In this document: positions 12,600 to 15,484 of the stretch, piece by piece
How the letters are laid out: every line of letters starts with the position of its first letter
Position numbering within the stretch: position 1 is the stretch's first letter
Source: Chryseolinea sp. H1M3-3
GTDB lineage: Bacteria > Bacteroidota > Bacteroidia > Cytophagales > Cyclobacteriaceae
Direction of reading: 5' to 3'
DNA: 64,000 nucleotides
NCBI RefSeq assembly: GCF_029360725.1
Contig: NZ_JARKMY010000001.1
Span: forward strand, 1,054,001 to 1,118,000
Notes under the pieces: model-generated
Database searches by the model: none
The model's input: only the letters and a program-made list of their open reading frames with translations
What the model was told of the DNA's origin: nothing
Made by a program: the position numbers and the translations under genes

Positions 12600-12863
12600 T
12601 CAACTGAACTTATGGTATTTTGAAAAGGATTTCCTTTTCAATGAACTCTCCCCCACACCACTTTTCAGATATTTTTCGCGCGCAATTGCATCACCTTTTT
12701 CATTGAATGTCTCGCTGTTAATTAATATCCAAGGCCGTCCTCTGAGAGTCCACCCCTTAATGCCGTTATTGTGAGCATGCAACCGAGCATCCAGATTTGC
12801 AGTGAATCCAACATAAGTCTTCCTTAACGAGGCAGACCACAATATGTAAACATAAAATGACTT
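12600..12863 (-). pseudogene. GIY-YIG nuclease domain gene, copy 1, start codon lost
   Basis: About 87 codons downstream of the tRNA-fMet terminator. It encodes a complete-looking small GIY-YIG domain: FYVYILWSASLRKTYVGFT, ANLDARLHAHNNG, WILINSETF, then AIAREKYLKSGVG and a basic tail. The position that is ATG in the second copy (15239) is AAG here at 12863, and no ATG or GTG lies in frame before the domain; the frame simply runs back through the tRNA. Unless a TTG inside the domain is used, it is not translatable as a full domain. The 5' 168 bp (12696-12863) belong to the 232-bp inverted repeat. The family is related to UvrC and homing-type nucleases. Confidence 0.65.
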
Positions 12864-12927
12864 AAAACGGAGAAAGCGATCTTTGGGATCGCTTTCTTTA
12901 GTAGCGGGGACAGGACTCGAACCTGTG
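12696..12927 (-). repeat. Inverted repeat copy 1: tRNA-fMet 3' end, terminator, GIY-YIG 5' part
   Basis: 232 bp that match 15175-15406 on the opposite strand with 8 mismatches and no gaps (my count, about 97 percent). Content in order: last 26 nt of tRNA-fMet, terminator hairpin, GIY-YIG 5' coding part. This copy continues into the intact tRNA on one side and the full GIY-YIG C-terminus on the other, so it looks like the parental copy. Confidence 0.9.
12871..12897 (-). terminator. Terminator hairpin of tRNA-fMet
   Basis: An 11-bp stem (AGAAAGCGATC / GATCGCTTTCT) with a 5-nt loop, followed on the minus strand by CCGTTTTA. It starts 4 nt after the tRNA 3' end. The T-run is short, so efficiency is uncertain. 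Confidence 0.7.
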
Positions 12928-12974
12928 ACCTTTGGGTTATGAGCCCAACGAGCTACCAACTGCTCCACCCCGCG
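12902..12974 (-). tRNA. tRNA-fMet (initiator), anticodon CAT
   Basis: 73 nt on the minus strand with a full cloverleaf: acceptor CGCGGGG / CCCCGCT, anticodon loop CTCATAA, T-arm ACAGG-TTCGAGT-CCTGT, and no encoded CCA. Two initiator hallmarks are visible: a mismatched first acceptor pair (C1 opposite T72) and three consecutive G:C pairs at the base of the anticodon loop (GGG / CCC). It has its own promoter and terminator. Its last 26 nt are duplicated at 15175-15200. Confidence 0.95.
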
Positions 12975-13018
12975 ATGTATTTGCGTTTTTATAACCAGAG
13001 GGTTGTAAAAATCGTTCG

Positions 13019-13050
13019 CAAAAGTAGGTCTACAATAATTAAAAACCAAA
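13019..13050 (-). promoter_or_regulatory. Predicted promoter of tRNA-fMet
   Basis: On the minus strand TTTG (13047-13050), a 20-nt spacer and TACTTTTG (13019-13026). It is a full match to the Bacteroidota primary-sigma pattern. The tRNA 5' end is at 12974. Confidence 0.7.
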
Positions 13051-13118
13051 TGGTTGAGTCAATCTCATCCAACAGAATAAAGCTCGGTACCGGTAATAAT
13101 TCAATAATTGGAAAGGAA

Positions 13119-14951
13119 TTACGCCCTTTTTGCCTCCTGCAATATCATATTTGGCTGCATGGTAATTTCAGGCGTATTTTCTTGGGACTTAATTTCCGTA
13201 ATCTGATGATCCCACAGTTCCTTAAATACTAGGCTGGAGCGTCTTAGTTCTTCAAAAGTTCCTTTGTCGACAATGAAGCCGTCCTTGAGAATGTATACAT
13301 AATCAAAGTAGTGCAATAAGTGTAACCGGTGCAAGGATGAAATTATAGCCTTACCTTCAAATGCCTGGAATAGATTTTCATAAATGTTTCTCTCGGTACG
13401 CGGATCTATGCTGCTGGTAGGTTCATCCAATAAAACCAGGTCGCTGGTTTTCGCCGCCAGAATTCCCCGTGCCAGGGCTAATCGTTGCTTTTGGCCACCT
13501 GAAAGGTTTACACCCTTTTCCTGGATGTTCGTTTCAAATCCATTCGGGAGCTTGTTCACTACAGAATCAAACTGCGCTGCACGGCACGCTTGTGCAATCT
13601 CATCCTCATTGAATTTCAGGCCTAGTGTGATATTGTATAATATCGTGTTCTCGAAAATTTCTGGATCCTGTGGCAGAAGCGTCACATTGTTGGCTATCGT
13701 TTCAAAGTTTTCGGTTTCACTGTCATTAATGCGTATTTGTGTTGACGATTGCGGTTGGAACAAGCCACGAAGCAGTGCTAATAAGGTGCTCTTTCCGCAT
13801 CCACTTTCACCAATCAAGGCAATTCGTTTACCTTTTTCAATCCGCATGCTTAAGTCATGTAAACCCACGCGAGGCTGTGTATTTGACGTATCAGCCCGAT
13901 AAAAATTCAGGTTTTCGATATCGATGGTTTTCCAGTGGGAAGGAAGTTTTTTTTCTGCATCGAATAAATGCATTTGATCATAGGCCGCTTCCACTTCCCT
14001 GACATTCTGTAGTTCAGTGTTGAACTTCATGATCTGAGTGTAGTGACCCGCGATATCATTAAATACACTGGTAAATTGATTCACATATCCCAGCAGCACA
14101 ACCAATCCACCTATGAAAAATGTTGAACCGGTATTCCAATGTTGATAGAGGTACCCAATGGTGGTCACACAATAAATTAATCCTACCATCATTTGTGCTG
14201 TGAACCACTTCCATTCGTTGACCGAAACATTTTTCTTGAATGGCGGATAAACGGCCATCAATTTGCCCATATAAGTTGCTTGAATTCTTTTTTCAAGTCG
14301 TAAAGTAATAACCGTTATAATATTGGACAGACTATCAAAAAGTGTCGACGATACTTCGTGTTCGCGTTCGTTTACCTCCTTCAGTGAGCGGATAAAAACT
14401 TTATCAAATTTTGCTATAACCCAGATCGTAATGATTCCAAGTATAACCCCTATTGCGCCAAACAGCGGTGAAAAATAAAGCATCGCGCCAAACGAAAAGA
14501 AAAACTTACCAAATGAATAGAAATAGATAAATCCGTTTTGAAAAAAATCGCGAAGTGCTTCGTGGGCTTTGCGCAATTTGTTGATCGTTGATCCGCTGTG
14601 GTGATCCTGGTGCCACTTCACAGGCAGGTGCAAAATCTTGTGGTAAACTTCTTCCATGAAGTTCCGGCTTAAGGTAAAGGCCAACTGGCGTTCCATTACC
14701 CTACCCGGACCGTGGAAACACCATTCCAGTAAACGAAGTCCCAGAAAGCCACCAATGTATAGCCAGCCCGTTCTCAGTACATCTGCGCCTTGGAACTGAA
14801 GTTCATTTATAAACCATCCATAAAACAACGGGTTTATGGCAACTATAGTGGTAGCCATAATAAACATTGCATATACTACAACAAAACGTTTCTTCTCCTG
14901 GCGGGCATATTTCCATGCTGTTGAAAGAAGGGAGAAATAAGGATTACGCAT
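13119..14951 (-). CDS. ABC exporter, fused membrane and ATP-binding domains
   Basis: 610 residues. The N-terminal half is a six-helix exporter domain (about residues 20-310). The C-terminal half is the ATPase: Walker A GESGCGKST at 381-389, signature LSGGQKQRLALARG near 482, Walker B LVLLDEP and H-loop ISSLHR. As a half-transporter it should act as a dimer in the inner membrane; the substrate (lipid, peptide or drug) cannot be read from the sequence. The gene lies exactly between the two inverted copies of the tRNA-fMet/GIY-YIG unit and would be inverted by recombination between them. A 28-residue tail after the ATPase is not conserved-looking. Confidence 0.92.
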   Translation of the reverse strand: MRNPYFSLLSTAWKYARQEKKRFVVVYAMFIMATTIVAINPLFYGWFINELQFQGADVLRTGWLYIGGFLGLRLLEWCFHGPGRVMERQLAFTLSRNFMEEVYHKILHLPVKWHQDHHSGSTINKLRKAHEALRDFFQNGFIYFYSFGKFFFSFGAMLYFSPLFGAIGVILGIITIWVIAKFDKVFIRSLKEVNEREHEVSSTLFDSLSNIITVITLRLEKRIQATYMGKLMAVYPPFKKNVSVNEWKWFTAQMMVGLIYCVTTIGYLYQHWNTGSTFFIGGLVVLLGYVNQFTSVFNDIAGHYTQIMKFNTELQNVREVEAAYDQMHLFDAEKKLPSHWKTIDIENLNFYRADTSNTQPRVGLHDLSMRIEKGKRIALIGESGCGKSTLLALLRGLFQPQSSTQIRINDSETENFETIANNVTLLPQDPEIFENTILYNITLGLKFNEDEIAQACRAAQFDSVVNKLPNGFETNIQEKGVNLSGGQKQRLALARGILAAKTSDLVLLDEPTSSIDPRTERNIYENLFQAFEGKAIISSLHRLHLLHYFDYVYILKDGFIVDKGTFEELRRSSLVFKELWDHQITEIKSQENTPEITMQPNMILQEAKRA

Positions 14952-15160
14952 TTACGTGTGAGGGATTTTGATGCAAGTACGCAGGCGGGTATTTTAAAAG
15001 CTGTGTAATCTCAGAAAGGATATTACATTCCTCAGAGATTGAGACCCTAGGTAAGATTGGATCTAAATGGCGACCAAACTTTCTTGGACAAGGAATGCTT
15101 TGCAGGAGAATTTTTTGGTTCAAATCAAGTCATGATATCGTTTGTTACGCTGAGCTCATA

Positions 15161-15174
15161 TCCGCCGCGGCGGA
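15161..15174. repeat. Perfect 14-bp GC palindrome abutting the duplicated tRNA end
   Basis: TCCGCCGCGGCGGA is its own reverse complement. It ends at 15174, and the duplicated tRNA segment begins at 15175. It replaces the sequence that precedes this segment in the intact tRNA. Confidence 0.9.
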
Positions 15175-15200
15175 CACAGGTTCGAGTCCTGTCCCCGCTA
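15175..15200 (+). pseudogene. tRNA-fMet 3' fragment (T-arm and 3' acceptor strand)
   Basis: 26 nt identical to the end of the intact tRNA-fMet, up to the discriminator base. The 5' half is missing; a short similarity (GCTCATA at 15154-15160, like the anticodon region) may be a degraded remnant. No promoter of the tRNA type precedes it. Confidence 0.85.
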
Positions 15201-15204
15201 CTAA

Positions 15205-15231
15205 AGAAAGCGATCCCAAAGATCGCTTTCT
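15205..15231 (+). terminator. Duplicated tRNA terminator hairpin
   Basis: Same 11-bp stem and CCAAA loop as at 12871-12897, now on the plus strand, followed by CCGTTTTA. There is no functional tRNA upstream. Confidence 0.6.
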
Positions 15232-15238
15232 CCGTTTT

Positions 15239-15484
15239 ATGCCATTTTATGTTTACATATTGTGGTCTGCCTCCTTGAGGAAGACTTATGTTGGATTCAC
15301 TGCTAATCTGGATGCTCGGTTGCATGCTCACAATAACGGCGTTAAGGGGTGGACTCTCAGAGGACGGCCTTGGATATTAATTAACAGCGAGATATTTAAT
15401 GAAAAAAAACATGAAGCTATTCTTTCCGGTCAGGATATGGGGGGCTGGGTACAGAGTGGCCATGAAGAGGGGTTTTATTGTTGA
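15239..15484 (+). pseudogene. GIY-YIG nuclease domain gene, copy 2, truncated
   Basis: This copy keeps an ATG (MPFYVYILWSASLRKTYVGF) but matches copy 1 only for the first 56 codons or so, to WILINSEIFNEK. Beyond 15406 the frame runs through unrelated sequence (HEAILSGQDMGGWVQSGHEE) to a stop at 15484, so the domain's C-terminal helix with the REKYLKSG motif is lost. The 81-residue product is unlikely to be an active nuclease. Confidence 0.65.

Follow-up and report, generated by a model that had tools for sequence, protein, structure and literature searches.

Inverted copies of a tRNA-linked gene in Chryseolinea

Our analysis concerns a repeated sequence in Chryseolinea sp. H1M3-3, located in a 64,000-nucleotide stretch of DNA that we refer to, as a whole, as the window. 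The repeat has two inverted arms, either side of an ATP-binding cassette (ABC) exporter gene, and involves an initiator transfer RNA gene (tRNA-fMet), its terminator-like hairpin and a gene encoding a small GIY-YIG protein. In related genomes these parts recur as a unit. This unit comprises a tRNA gene, a terminator, a GIY-YIG gene of approximately 85 codons and a pseudo-tRNA that has a palindrome instead of one arm. The unit looks like an undescribed selfish element that lives off tRNA genes. The features of the window are listed in Table 1.

Table 1. Features at the inverted repeat. Coordinates are window positions.
Feature	Coordinates	Strand	Basis
GIY-YIG gene, left copy, decayed	12600..12860	-	PF01541, E 2.5e-14; comparison with G001-G004
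Left arm: tRNA-fMet 3' end, terminator and first part of GIY-YIG gene	12696..12930	-	Repeat search
Terminator-like hairpin between tRNA and GIY-YIG frame	12871..12897	-	27-mer in both arms; judged by eye
tRNA-fMet, anticodon CAT; sole full tRNA of the window	12901..12974	-	ARAGORN; Rfam RF00005, 66.1 bits
ABC exporter between the arms	13119..14951	-	PF00005/PF00664; tblastn, 82% identity in L161
Pseudo-tRNA-fMet: 5' part to GCTCATA, palindrome, intact tRNA 3' end	15149..15202	+	Alignment with relatives; many other loci alike
Perfect palindrome TCCGCCGCGGCGGA in place of anticodon 3' stem	15161..15174	+	Matches A-TCCG..CGGA-C motif of 64 loci
Right arm of inverted repeat	15172..15406	+	Repeat search
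Terminator-like hairpin, second copy	15205..15231	+	Repeat search
GIY-YIG gene, right copy, truncated	15239..15484	+	PF01541, E 1.5e-10

The arms identified by the repeat search are each 235 nt long, 96% complementary and separated by a spacer of 2241 nt. A match of this length and identity is far above chance expectation. An earlier description of the window, hereafter the sequence-only reading, reported a 232 bp inverted duplication (12696-12927 and 15175-15406) with sharp edges. The duplication is confirmed, with essentially equal coordinates. The edge on the tRNA side is indeed sharp, because a 14-bp perfect palindrome overlaps it; the real tRNA and the pseudo-tRNA diverge at this palindrome. 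Neither copy of the gene looks intact. The left copy has no start codon, where relatives keep one, and its C-terminus has diverged. For the right copy, homology stops at position 15406 and the tail is unrelated. Two open reading frames, 12600-13049 (-) and 15095-15484 (+), extend across the 3' end of the tRNA and on into the GIY-YIG sequence (GSSPVPATKES...), and could cause spurious N-terminal extensions in gene calls.

In the congener G004, the gene order is era (-), ABC exporter (+), tRNA-fMet (+), pseudo-tRNA, GIY-YIG (+) and pseudo-tRNA. Hence, the G004 exporter has the opposite orientation and is placed between era and tRNA-fMet. The order in the window is era (-), GIY-YIG (-), tRNA (-), ABC exporter (-), pseudo-tRNA (+) and truncated GIY-YIG (+). 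Inversion between two inverted copies of the unit would account for this difference, and the layout fits a local inversion of the segment carrying the exporter and tRNA. We interpret the window repeat as a relic of the widespread unit, with two decayed gene copies in inverted orientation and intact ones in relatives.

Could the feature simply be old and local, the product of an ordinary duplication or inversion with no wider meaning? Such an event is consistent with decay of both gene copies and the flipped orientation of the exporter and tRNA compared to G004. Similarly, when the source genome was searched with the start of the right arm, no further match exceeded 31 nt. A local event accounts for the layout, but not for recurrence of the unit, described below, in most of 79 loci and with 10 tRNA isotypes plus transfer-messenger RNA (tmRNA). 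We consider it very improbable as an explanation and, given the recurrence across Met-type loci, reject simple old duplication as the whole account. We also rejected the idea that palindromes like TCCGCCGCGGCGGA are a common repeat in the window; only one of 22 palindromes with arms of at least 7 nt is of this type. Palindromes with arms of at least 6 nt number 69, compared to 68 in one shuffle.

Anatomy of the unit at tRNA-Met genes

An alignment scan of our genome collection, taking the best 80 of 244 relatives, gave a Met-type set of 79 loci. By title, these belong to Cytophagales, Chitinophagales, Sphingobacteriales, Bacteroidales, Flavobacteriales and Balneolales, plus one Candidatus Tenebribacter (some assignments to orders are our presumption). 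A tRNA-Met gene is found on the same strand, no more than 700 nt upstream, at 63 of the 79 loci. Eight others are cut by a contig end and eight have none. The median distance between tRNA-Met and the gene match is 55 nt. On the other side of the gene, a TC..GA palindrome lies within 160 nt downstream at 67 loci; two loci have too little sequence and 10 lack the palindrome. Both features are present at 55 loci. In control windows, 700-2360 nt downstream, the palindrome was detected in 23 of 263 cases.

All 64 palindromes that were aligned have the form A-TCCG..CGGA-C. They follow letters resembling CATA of tRNA-Met and precede the variable loop and T-arm. Stem position 5 is C-G in 59 palindromes, T-A in four and G-C in one, while position 6 is C-G in 59 and T-A in five. 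Note that, because the search required perfect arms, these paired changes describe covariation and do not test it. The remaining three of the 67 palindromes (L207, L209 and L232) are of another kind or in another place. In the 39-genome set introduced below, palindromes were called with arms of 5, a pattern that often occurs by chance. Since that threshold is weak, we base the palindrome claim solely on the Met-type set.

The 27 nt of pseudo-tRNA that follow the palindrome match the 3' end of the tRNA at the same locus at a median of 27 of 27 positions (at least 26 in 35 of 53 cases). Compared with tRNAs from other loci, the match is 17 of 27, and none of 10,000 permutations reached the observed sum. 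We conclude that the 3' part of the pseudo-tRNA copies the tRNA of its own host and is local in origin. The terminator is also repeated in about half of cases (21 of 41 exceed the 95th percentile of mismatched pairs). The sequence-only reading had suggested an element that inserts by copying and carries its own restoring tRNA end. Consistent with the latter, a good tRNA is kept and the gene is followed by another tRNA end, which is broken; insertion by copying is what we infer. The inverted layout was not supported as the usual form of the unit; the copies at the studied loci are direct, on the same strand and often in tandem.

Further fragments of tRNA surround the unit. We identified 43 partial copies, from 25 loci, that begin at the tRNA 5' end without reaching its 3' end; 40 of these are upstream of the good tRNA. 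Thirty of the 43, from 15 loci, end 2-11 nt past T54, in or just after the T-loop. Of the others, seven are stops of the alignment at the palindrome and six are in other places. The 85 copies that have the tRNA 3' end are all downstream, and 10 further copies fit neither class. Some loci are tandem arrays. In G145, a 457-bp unit that starts inside the 3' end of tRNA-fMet is repeated 10.2 times at 99% identity. In G201, there are 7.9 copies of a 364 bp unit, at 92% identity, with no full tRNA in the stretch examined. The distal gene copy has decayed in several arrays; the copies in G145 are alike. We conclude that tandem amplification is, in places, recent. At two loci, L275 and L279, units are found upstream of the good tRNA and every readable gene is still behind a pseudo-tRNA.

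Linkage to tRNA isotype, the GIY-YIG protein and patchy distribution

We examined GIY-YIG genes in 39 genomes, being the source genome and 38 relatives. The loci are those matches listed that have a frame shorter than 300 amino acids. Frames longer than 250 amino acids, domain matches shorter than 60 amino acids, and one duplicate locus, were excluded from the row count. In the resulting tree of 84 rows, a clade of 24 splits off with support of 98/97; the alignment is short and many other forks are open. Outside this clade, a tRNA or tmRNA lies on the same strand, no more than 520 nt upstream, in 43 of 60 rows, compared to one of 24 inside (Fisher 9e-9, among the matches listed). Neither the tRNA-linked nor the unlinked group carries a family name. 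According to ARAGORN, the upstream tRNAs are Met, Asp, Glu, Pro, Leu, Val, Asn, Ser, Thr, Ala and His; tmRNA is also found. No tRNA was found at ten control loci with long-frame GIY-YIG genes. Hence, looking for small GIY-YIG frames behind tRNAs, as the sequence-only reading had advised, succeeded for many isotypes and for tmRNA. These genes are free-standing, outside introns and inteins, and sit directly behind the tRNA or tmRNA that is their likely target. The tRNA link that the sequence-only reading proposed for a mobile unit extends well beyond the window (43 of 60 rows, and 63 of 79 Met-type loci); mobility by tRNA cutting would be the further step, considered below.

Next, isotypes were mapped on the tree, using 35 rows, one per linked locus, covering 10 isotypes plus tmRNA. 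One false tRNA-SeC call, at L118, was counted as Met. Isotype changes 15 times on the tree. In 1000 shuffles, the mean was 22.4 changes, the minimum was 18 and none had as few as observed. Genome labels, with the genus of the window merged, change 23 times versus 23.0 in shuffles. We conclude that the tree of the linked group follows tRNA isotype and not host. The false call at L118 (G022) is a pseudo-tRNA-Met with palindrome, named tRNA-SeC by ARAGORN, and similar false annotation is to be expected in these genomes. At L038 (G015), near era, Glu and Met tRNAs, thirteen in all, mostly alternate in tandem.

Linked frames that have a start codon are short (median 84 amino acids, longest 112, n=44) and contain the GIY-YIG domain only. 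Eight columns are invariant in 30 sequences; we take these to include the catalytic tyrosines, R27 and E64, the catalytic role being our assumption. In five close pairs, the ratio of nonsynonymous to synonymous substitution rates (dN/dS) was 0.06-0.10. We conclude that the gene is under purifying selection and encodes a protein that appears maintained and nuclease-like. The nearest solved chains are UPF0213 first and then SLX1 (PDB 1zg2, 1ywl, 7wme, 7cq2 and 4xlg). For 1zg2, from UPF0213, the E value was 5.2e-18 with the family profile and 7.1e-7 with one member. No solved chain matched L001, from the other, unlinked, GIY-YIG group. Note that the gap between tRNA and gene is short and, at loci inspected by eye, much of it is terminator. 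Hence, there is little room for a promoter and the gene is likely expressed by read-through of the terminator.

The distribution of the unit is patchy. Near era, the GIY-YIG gene is present in congeners G001-G004; in G002 it follows the tRNA at a distance of 1.3 kb, and pseudo-tRNAs intervene. We found tRNA-Met in 18 of the 30 era loci examined. Eleven of these 18, from other genera, have no gene and no pseudo-tRNA. Other era loci that lack the gene have a pseudo-tRNA (G021) or a remnant, seen by eye (G005); for G014, the sequence is only 1 nt. The sequence-only reading had allowed that an arrangement fixed in all relatives, with the GIY-YIG frame at no other tRNA, would need only an old duplication. 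We found instead that the arrangement is not fixed in relatives, and the frame is behind many other tRNAs and tmRNA.

Among 198 genomes of the class, 80 have a Met-type alignment match (E 1e-12, a loose cut-off that also catches other isotypes). A strict pattern for pseudo-tRNA-fMet was detected in nine of the 198, and its reversed control in none. GIY-YIG matches occur in eight of the nine pattern genomes versus 72 of 189 others (p=0.0034), and seven of 16 pattern places are within 250 nt of a Met-type match. One pair of congeners differs in occupancy. In G231 the site is filled. In G172 the same tRNA and terminator are present, with no gene and no downstream pseudo-tRNA; a 5' partial tRNA copy lies upstream of the tRNA. 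Comparison of G004 with G005 is, by eye, suggestive of a similar difference.

The main rival explanation for these patterns is vertical inheritance with concerted evolution. Logically, the tRNA and GIY-YIG gene could be old neighbours, with tandem duplication generating arrays in which surplus tRNAs decay. The nuclease would have a role in the cell, for example in repair of hairpin-prone tRNA DNA, and there would be no mobility. The position of the Met unit near era in G000-G004, in the genus of the window, is consistent with this, as are strong purifying selection and the lack of a vehicle in phage, plasmid and viral-contig comparisons. Inheritance combined with gene conversion would also be expected to give isotype tracking and matching pseudo-tRNA ends. 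Conversely, the patchy presence across the class, at the loose cut-off above, argues against inheritance, as do the 11 era loci with tRNA-Met and no trace of the unit. So do isotype switches on the tree, the use of tmRNA as host, and the retention of pseudo-tRNA structure across orders. On balance, we think that inheritance without mobility is unlikely.

A homing-like model and known systems

Phage SegB is a free-standing GIY-YIG enzyme, encoded beside tRNAs, that cuts inside tRNA genes (PMC13096335). The motif RAWTSGAAC is present at 23 of 83 sites, and SegB is required for tandem amplification of the tRNA-segB segment (PMC13096335). The reverse complement of this motif corresponds, in our reading, to the T-loop consensus. 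Hence, the published cleavage motif (PMC13096335) would fall where most upstream partial copies end in our loci. Our proposal is that tRNA genes are also cut by the bacterial proteins, whose genes would be copied in with a tRNA end during repair. SegB and the unit share a GIY-YIG gene that is not within an intron, proximity to tRNAs of many isotypes, and tandem amplification of nuclease with tRNA (PMC13096335). They differ in that the unit is chromosomal, bacterial, encodes only approximately 85 amino acids with no second domain, is faithful to isotype, has a palindrome-bearing pseudo-tRNA, and has a putative cleavage activity.

With a probability of roughly 0.55, we favour a chromosomal nuclease unit, dependent on tRNA genes, that works like a free-standing homing endonuclease of the SegB type. 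Briefly, the small GIY-YIG protein would cut tRNA genes, probably in the T-loop and anticodon arm. Repair would then copy the nuclease gene behind the tRNA; a new tRNA 3' end would be copied with it and, in many cases, the terminator. One good tRNA would thereby always be kept. The displaced or surplus tRNA would persist as a pseudo-tRNA, the palindrome substituting for one arm. Tandem arrays would arise through repeated cutting and through recombination among short direct repeats of tRNA sequence. Lineages would hold to one isotype in the long term, with an occasional switch, and inversion of the exporter and tRNA segment would have left the relic in the window. Note that we infer DNA cleavage, the cut site, mobility and the role of the palindrome from the observed anatomy, tRNA association and partial copies.

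Several observations weigh against this model. Free-standing homing endonucleases of the SegB type typically have a DNA-binding region separate from the GIY-YIG domain. The protein here has no such separate domain, and its cleavage of tRNA genes is putative. Partial copies within one array are not independent, and ends in the T-loop could partly reflect selection or an alignment stop. In the 39 genomes, a full tRNA within 520 nt is missing for 17 of 60 rows in the linked group, and a clear 3' end of a pseudo-tRNA lies no more than 200 nt downstream in only 19 of 49 tRNA-linked cases. Pseudo-tRNAs with no adjacent gene exist (G021 and, by eye, G005). The co-occurrence test described above is weak; the matches of G021, G052 and G133 lie apart from the pattern, at least one of those in G021 is at tRNA-Asp, and G228 has the pseudo-tRNA-fMet pattern with no GIY-YIG match. 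There is a single clean filled and empty pair, G231 and G172, which loss would explain equally. For one Met-type query, phage and plasmid matches had at most 46% identity and no relative was found in viral contigs. With no close match, we rejected carriage of the Met type by phage or plasmid. Finally, TCCCGATA..TATCGGGA palindromes also occur away from tRNAs, and so palindromes may be a separate phenomenon.

This last point can be extended to a scheme in which two things overlap. Small palindromic repeats would insert into hairpin loops, of tRNA arms and terminators, and the GIY-YIG gene would ride with duplicated tRNAs. In 13 of the 39 genomes, TCCCGATA..TATCGGGA is present at 65 places, with none in the reversed control. 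Of 20 places inspected, several are in the arms of tRNAs or tRNA-like genes and one is in a terminator-like stem. In the source genome, a tRNA cluster carries TCCCGATA..TATCGGGA with no GIY-YIG match, and tRNA-Leu(CAA) has two palindrome-bearing pseudo-copies with no GIY-YIG match beside them. The palindrome of the Met family is near constant across orders in its sequence, its position and its spacing from the stop of the gene, a constancy that random insertion would not predict. Furthermore, era-fMet loci that lack the gene mostly lack the pseudo-tRNA. Two independent components therefore seem distinctly unlikely.

A more ambitious form of the homing-like model is tentative, and we hold it to be rather doubtful. 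It envisages an undescribed selfish class, spread throughout the phylum, comprising only the GIY-YIG gene and palindrome-bearing pseudo-tRNA. Such elements would enter via the anticodon arm or T-loop of tRNA or tmRNA and rebuild the tRNA with a copied 3' half. The palindrome could be a cis-acting end or a mark for self-protection, and lineages would be isotype-specific. In titles and opening lines of abstracts from full-text searches of the open literature, we found no description of this family in bacteria. If the homing-like model is correct, selfish DNA would have a new way to exploit some of the most constrained genes in a cell. The model would also account for tRNA fragments in Bacteroidota genomes and for their unusual tRNA predictions, of which false tRNA-SeC is an example. 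A nuclease family tied to many isotypes provides a directly testable target site.

Other known systems share parts of the anatomy. By sequence, UPF0213 and SLX1 provide the nearest solved chains, though the SLX1 chains are larger (183-324 amino acids); we know of no link to tRNA for GIY-YIG proteins of either type. It is well established that tRNA genes are docking sites for integrase-borne elements. Elements with tyrosine recombinases, which integrate at tRNAs, have a tRNA 3' end on both sides and retain a functional tRNA. The unit here also has a tRNA 3' end at both ends but, at 364-457 bp, is too short for an integrase and has only the small GIY-YIG frame. Palindromes plus an associated nuclease gene are also a feature of REP/RAYT systems, in which a Y1 (HUH) transposase is linked to the palindromes. 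Families of REP palindromes have been described (PMC3733652). In contrast, the proteins of the window unit match PF01541 only, with no Y1 transposase (no genome-wide search for RAYT was made), and the palindromes are inside pseudo-tRNAs. Finally, tRNA-linked repeats and the rtT repeats of E. coli tyrT are tandem repeats containing a tRNA 3' end. The unit here shares this property; to our knowledge, those repeats have no nuclease gene or palindrome.

Related sequences in the source genome

The Chryseolinea sp. H1M3-3 genome (6.88 Mb, 19 contigs) is congeneric with G004. It has eight PF01541 matches, two in long frames (606 and 459 amino acids) and six short. Of the short matches, one is behind tRNA-fMet, one is the truncated copy in the window and one is 219 nt behind tmRNA. 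Two more are within a three-copy array behind tRNA-Leu(TAA), and one is distant from tRNAs. In the array, copies 2 and 3 are preceded by a partial tRNA-Leu with a palindrome in the anticodon loop. A group I intron remnant was considered, because of the site, and dropped; the insert is an 18-nt palindrome (no RNA-family search of the locus was made). Same-strand partial copies are near two of 52 tRNA and tmRNA genes, namely tRNA-Leu(TAA) and tRNA-Leu(CAA); the copy in the window is on the other strand. With only two such genes, partial copies are not a general trait of tRNAs in this genome.

At L155 (C12:199130-200810), two partial copies lie behind tRNA-Leu(CAA); their palindromes are in the anticodon loop and T-loop, and there is no GIY-YIG match. 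At C1:1552523-1554642 (L139 and L172) there are approximately ten tRNAs. By eye, TCCCGATA..TATCGGGA hairpins occupy both the D-loop and the T-loop of a gene resembling tRNA-Ile, and also lie inside a called tRNA-Gly. At L167 and others of the 65 places in 13 of 39 genomes, the palindrome TCCCGATAnnTATCGGGA can be within the loop of a further hairpin, such as a terminator-like stem, as if small palindromes were inserted into such loops. By eye, the GIY-YIG gene at L001 (C2), a member of the unlinked group, is flanked on both sides by recurring GC-rich stretches that resemble one another.

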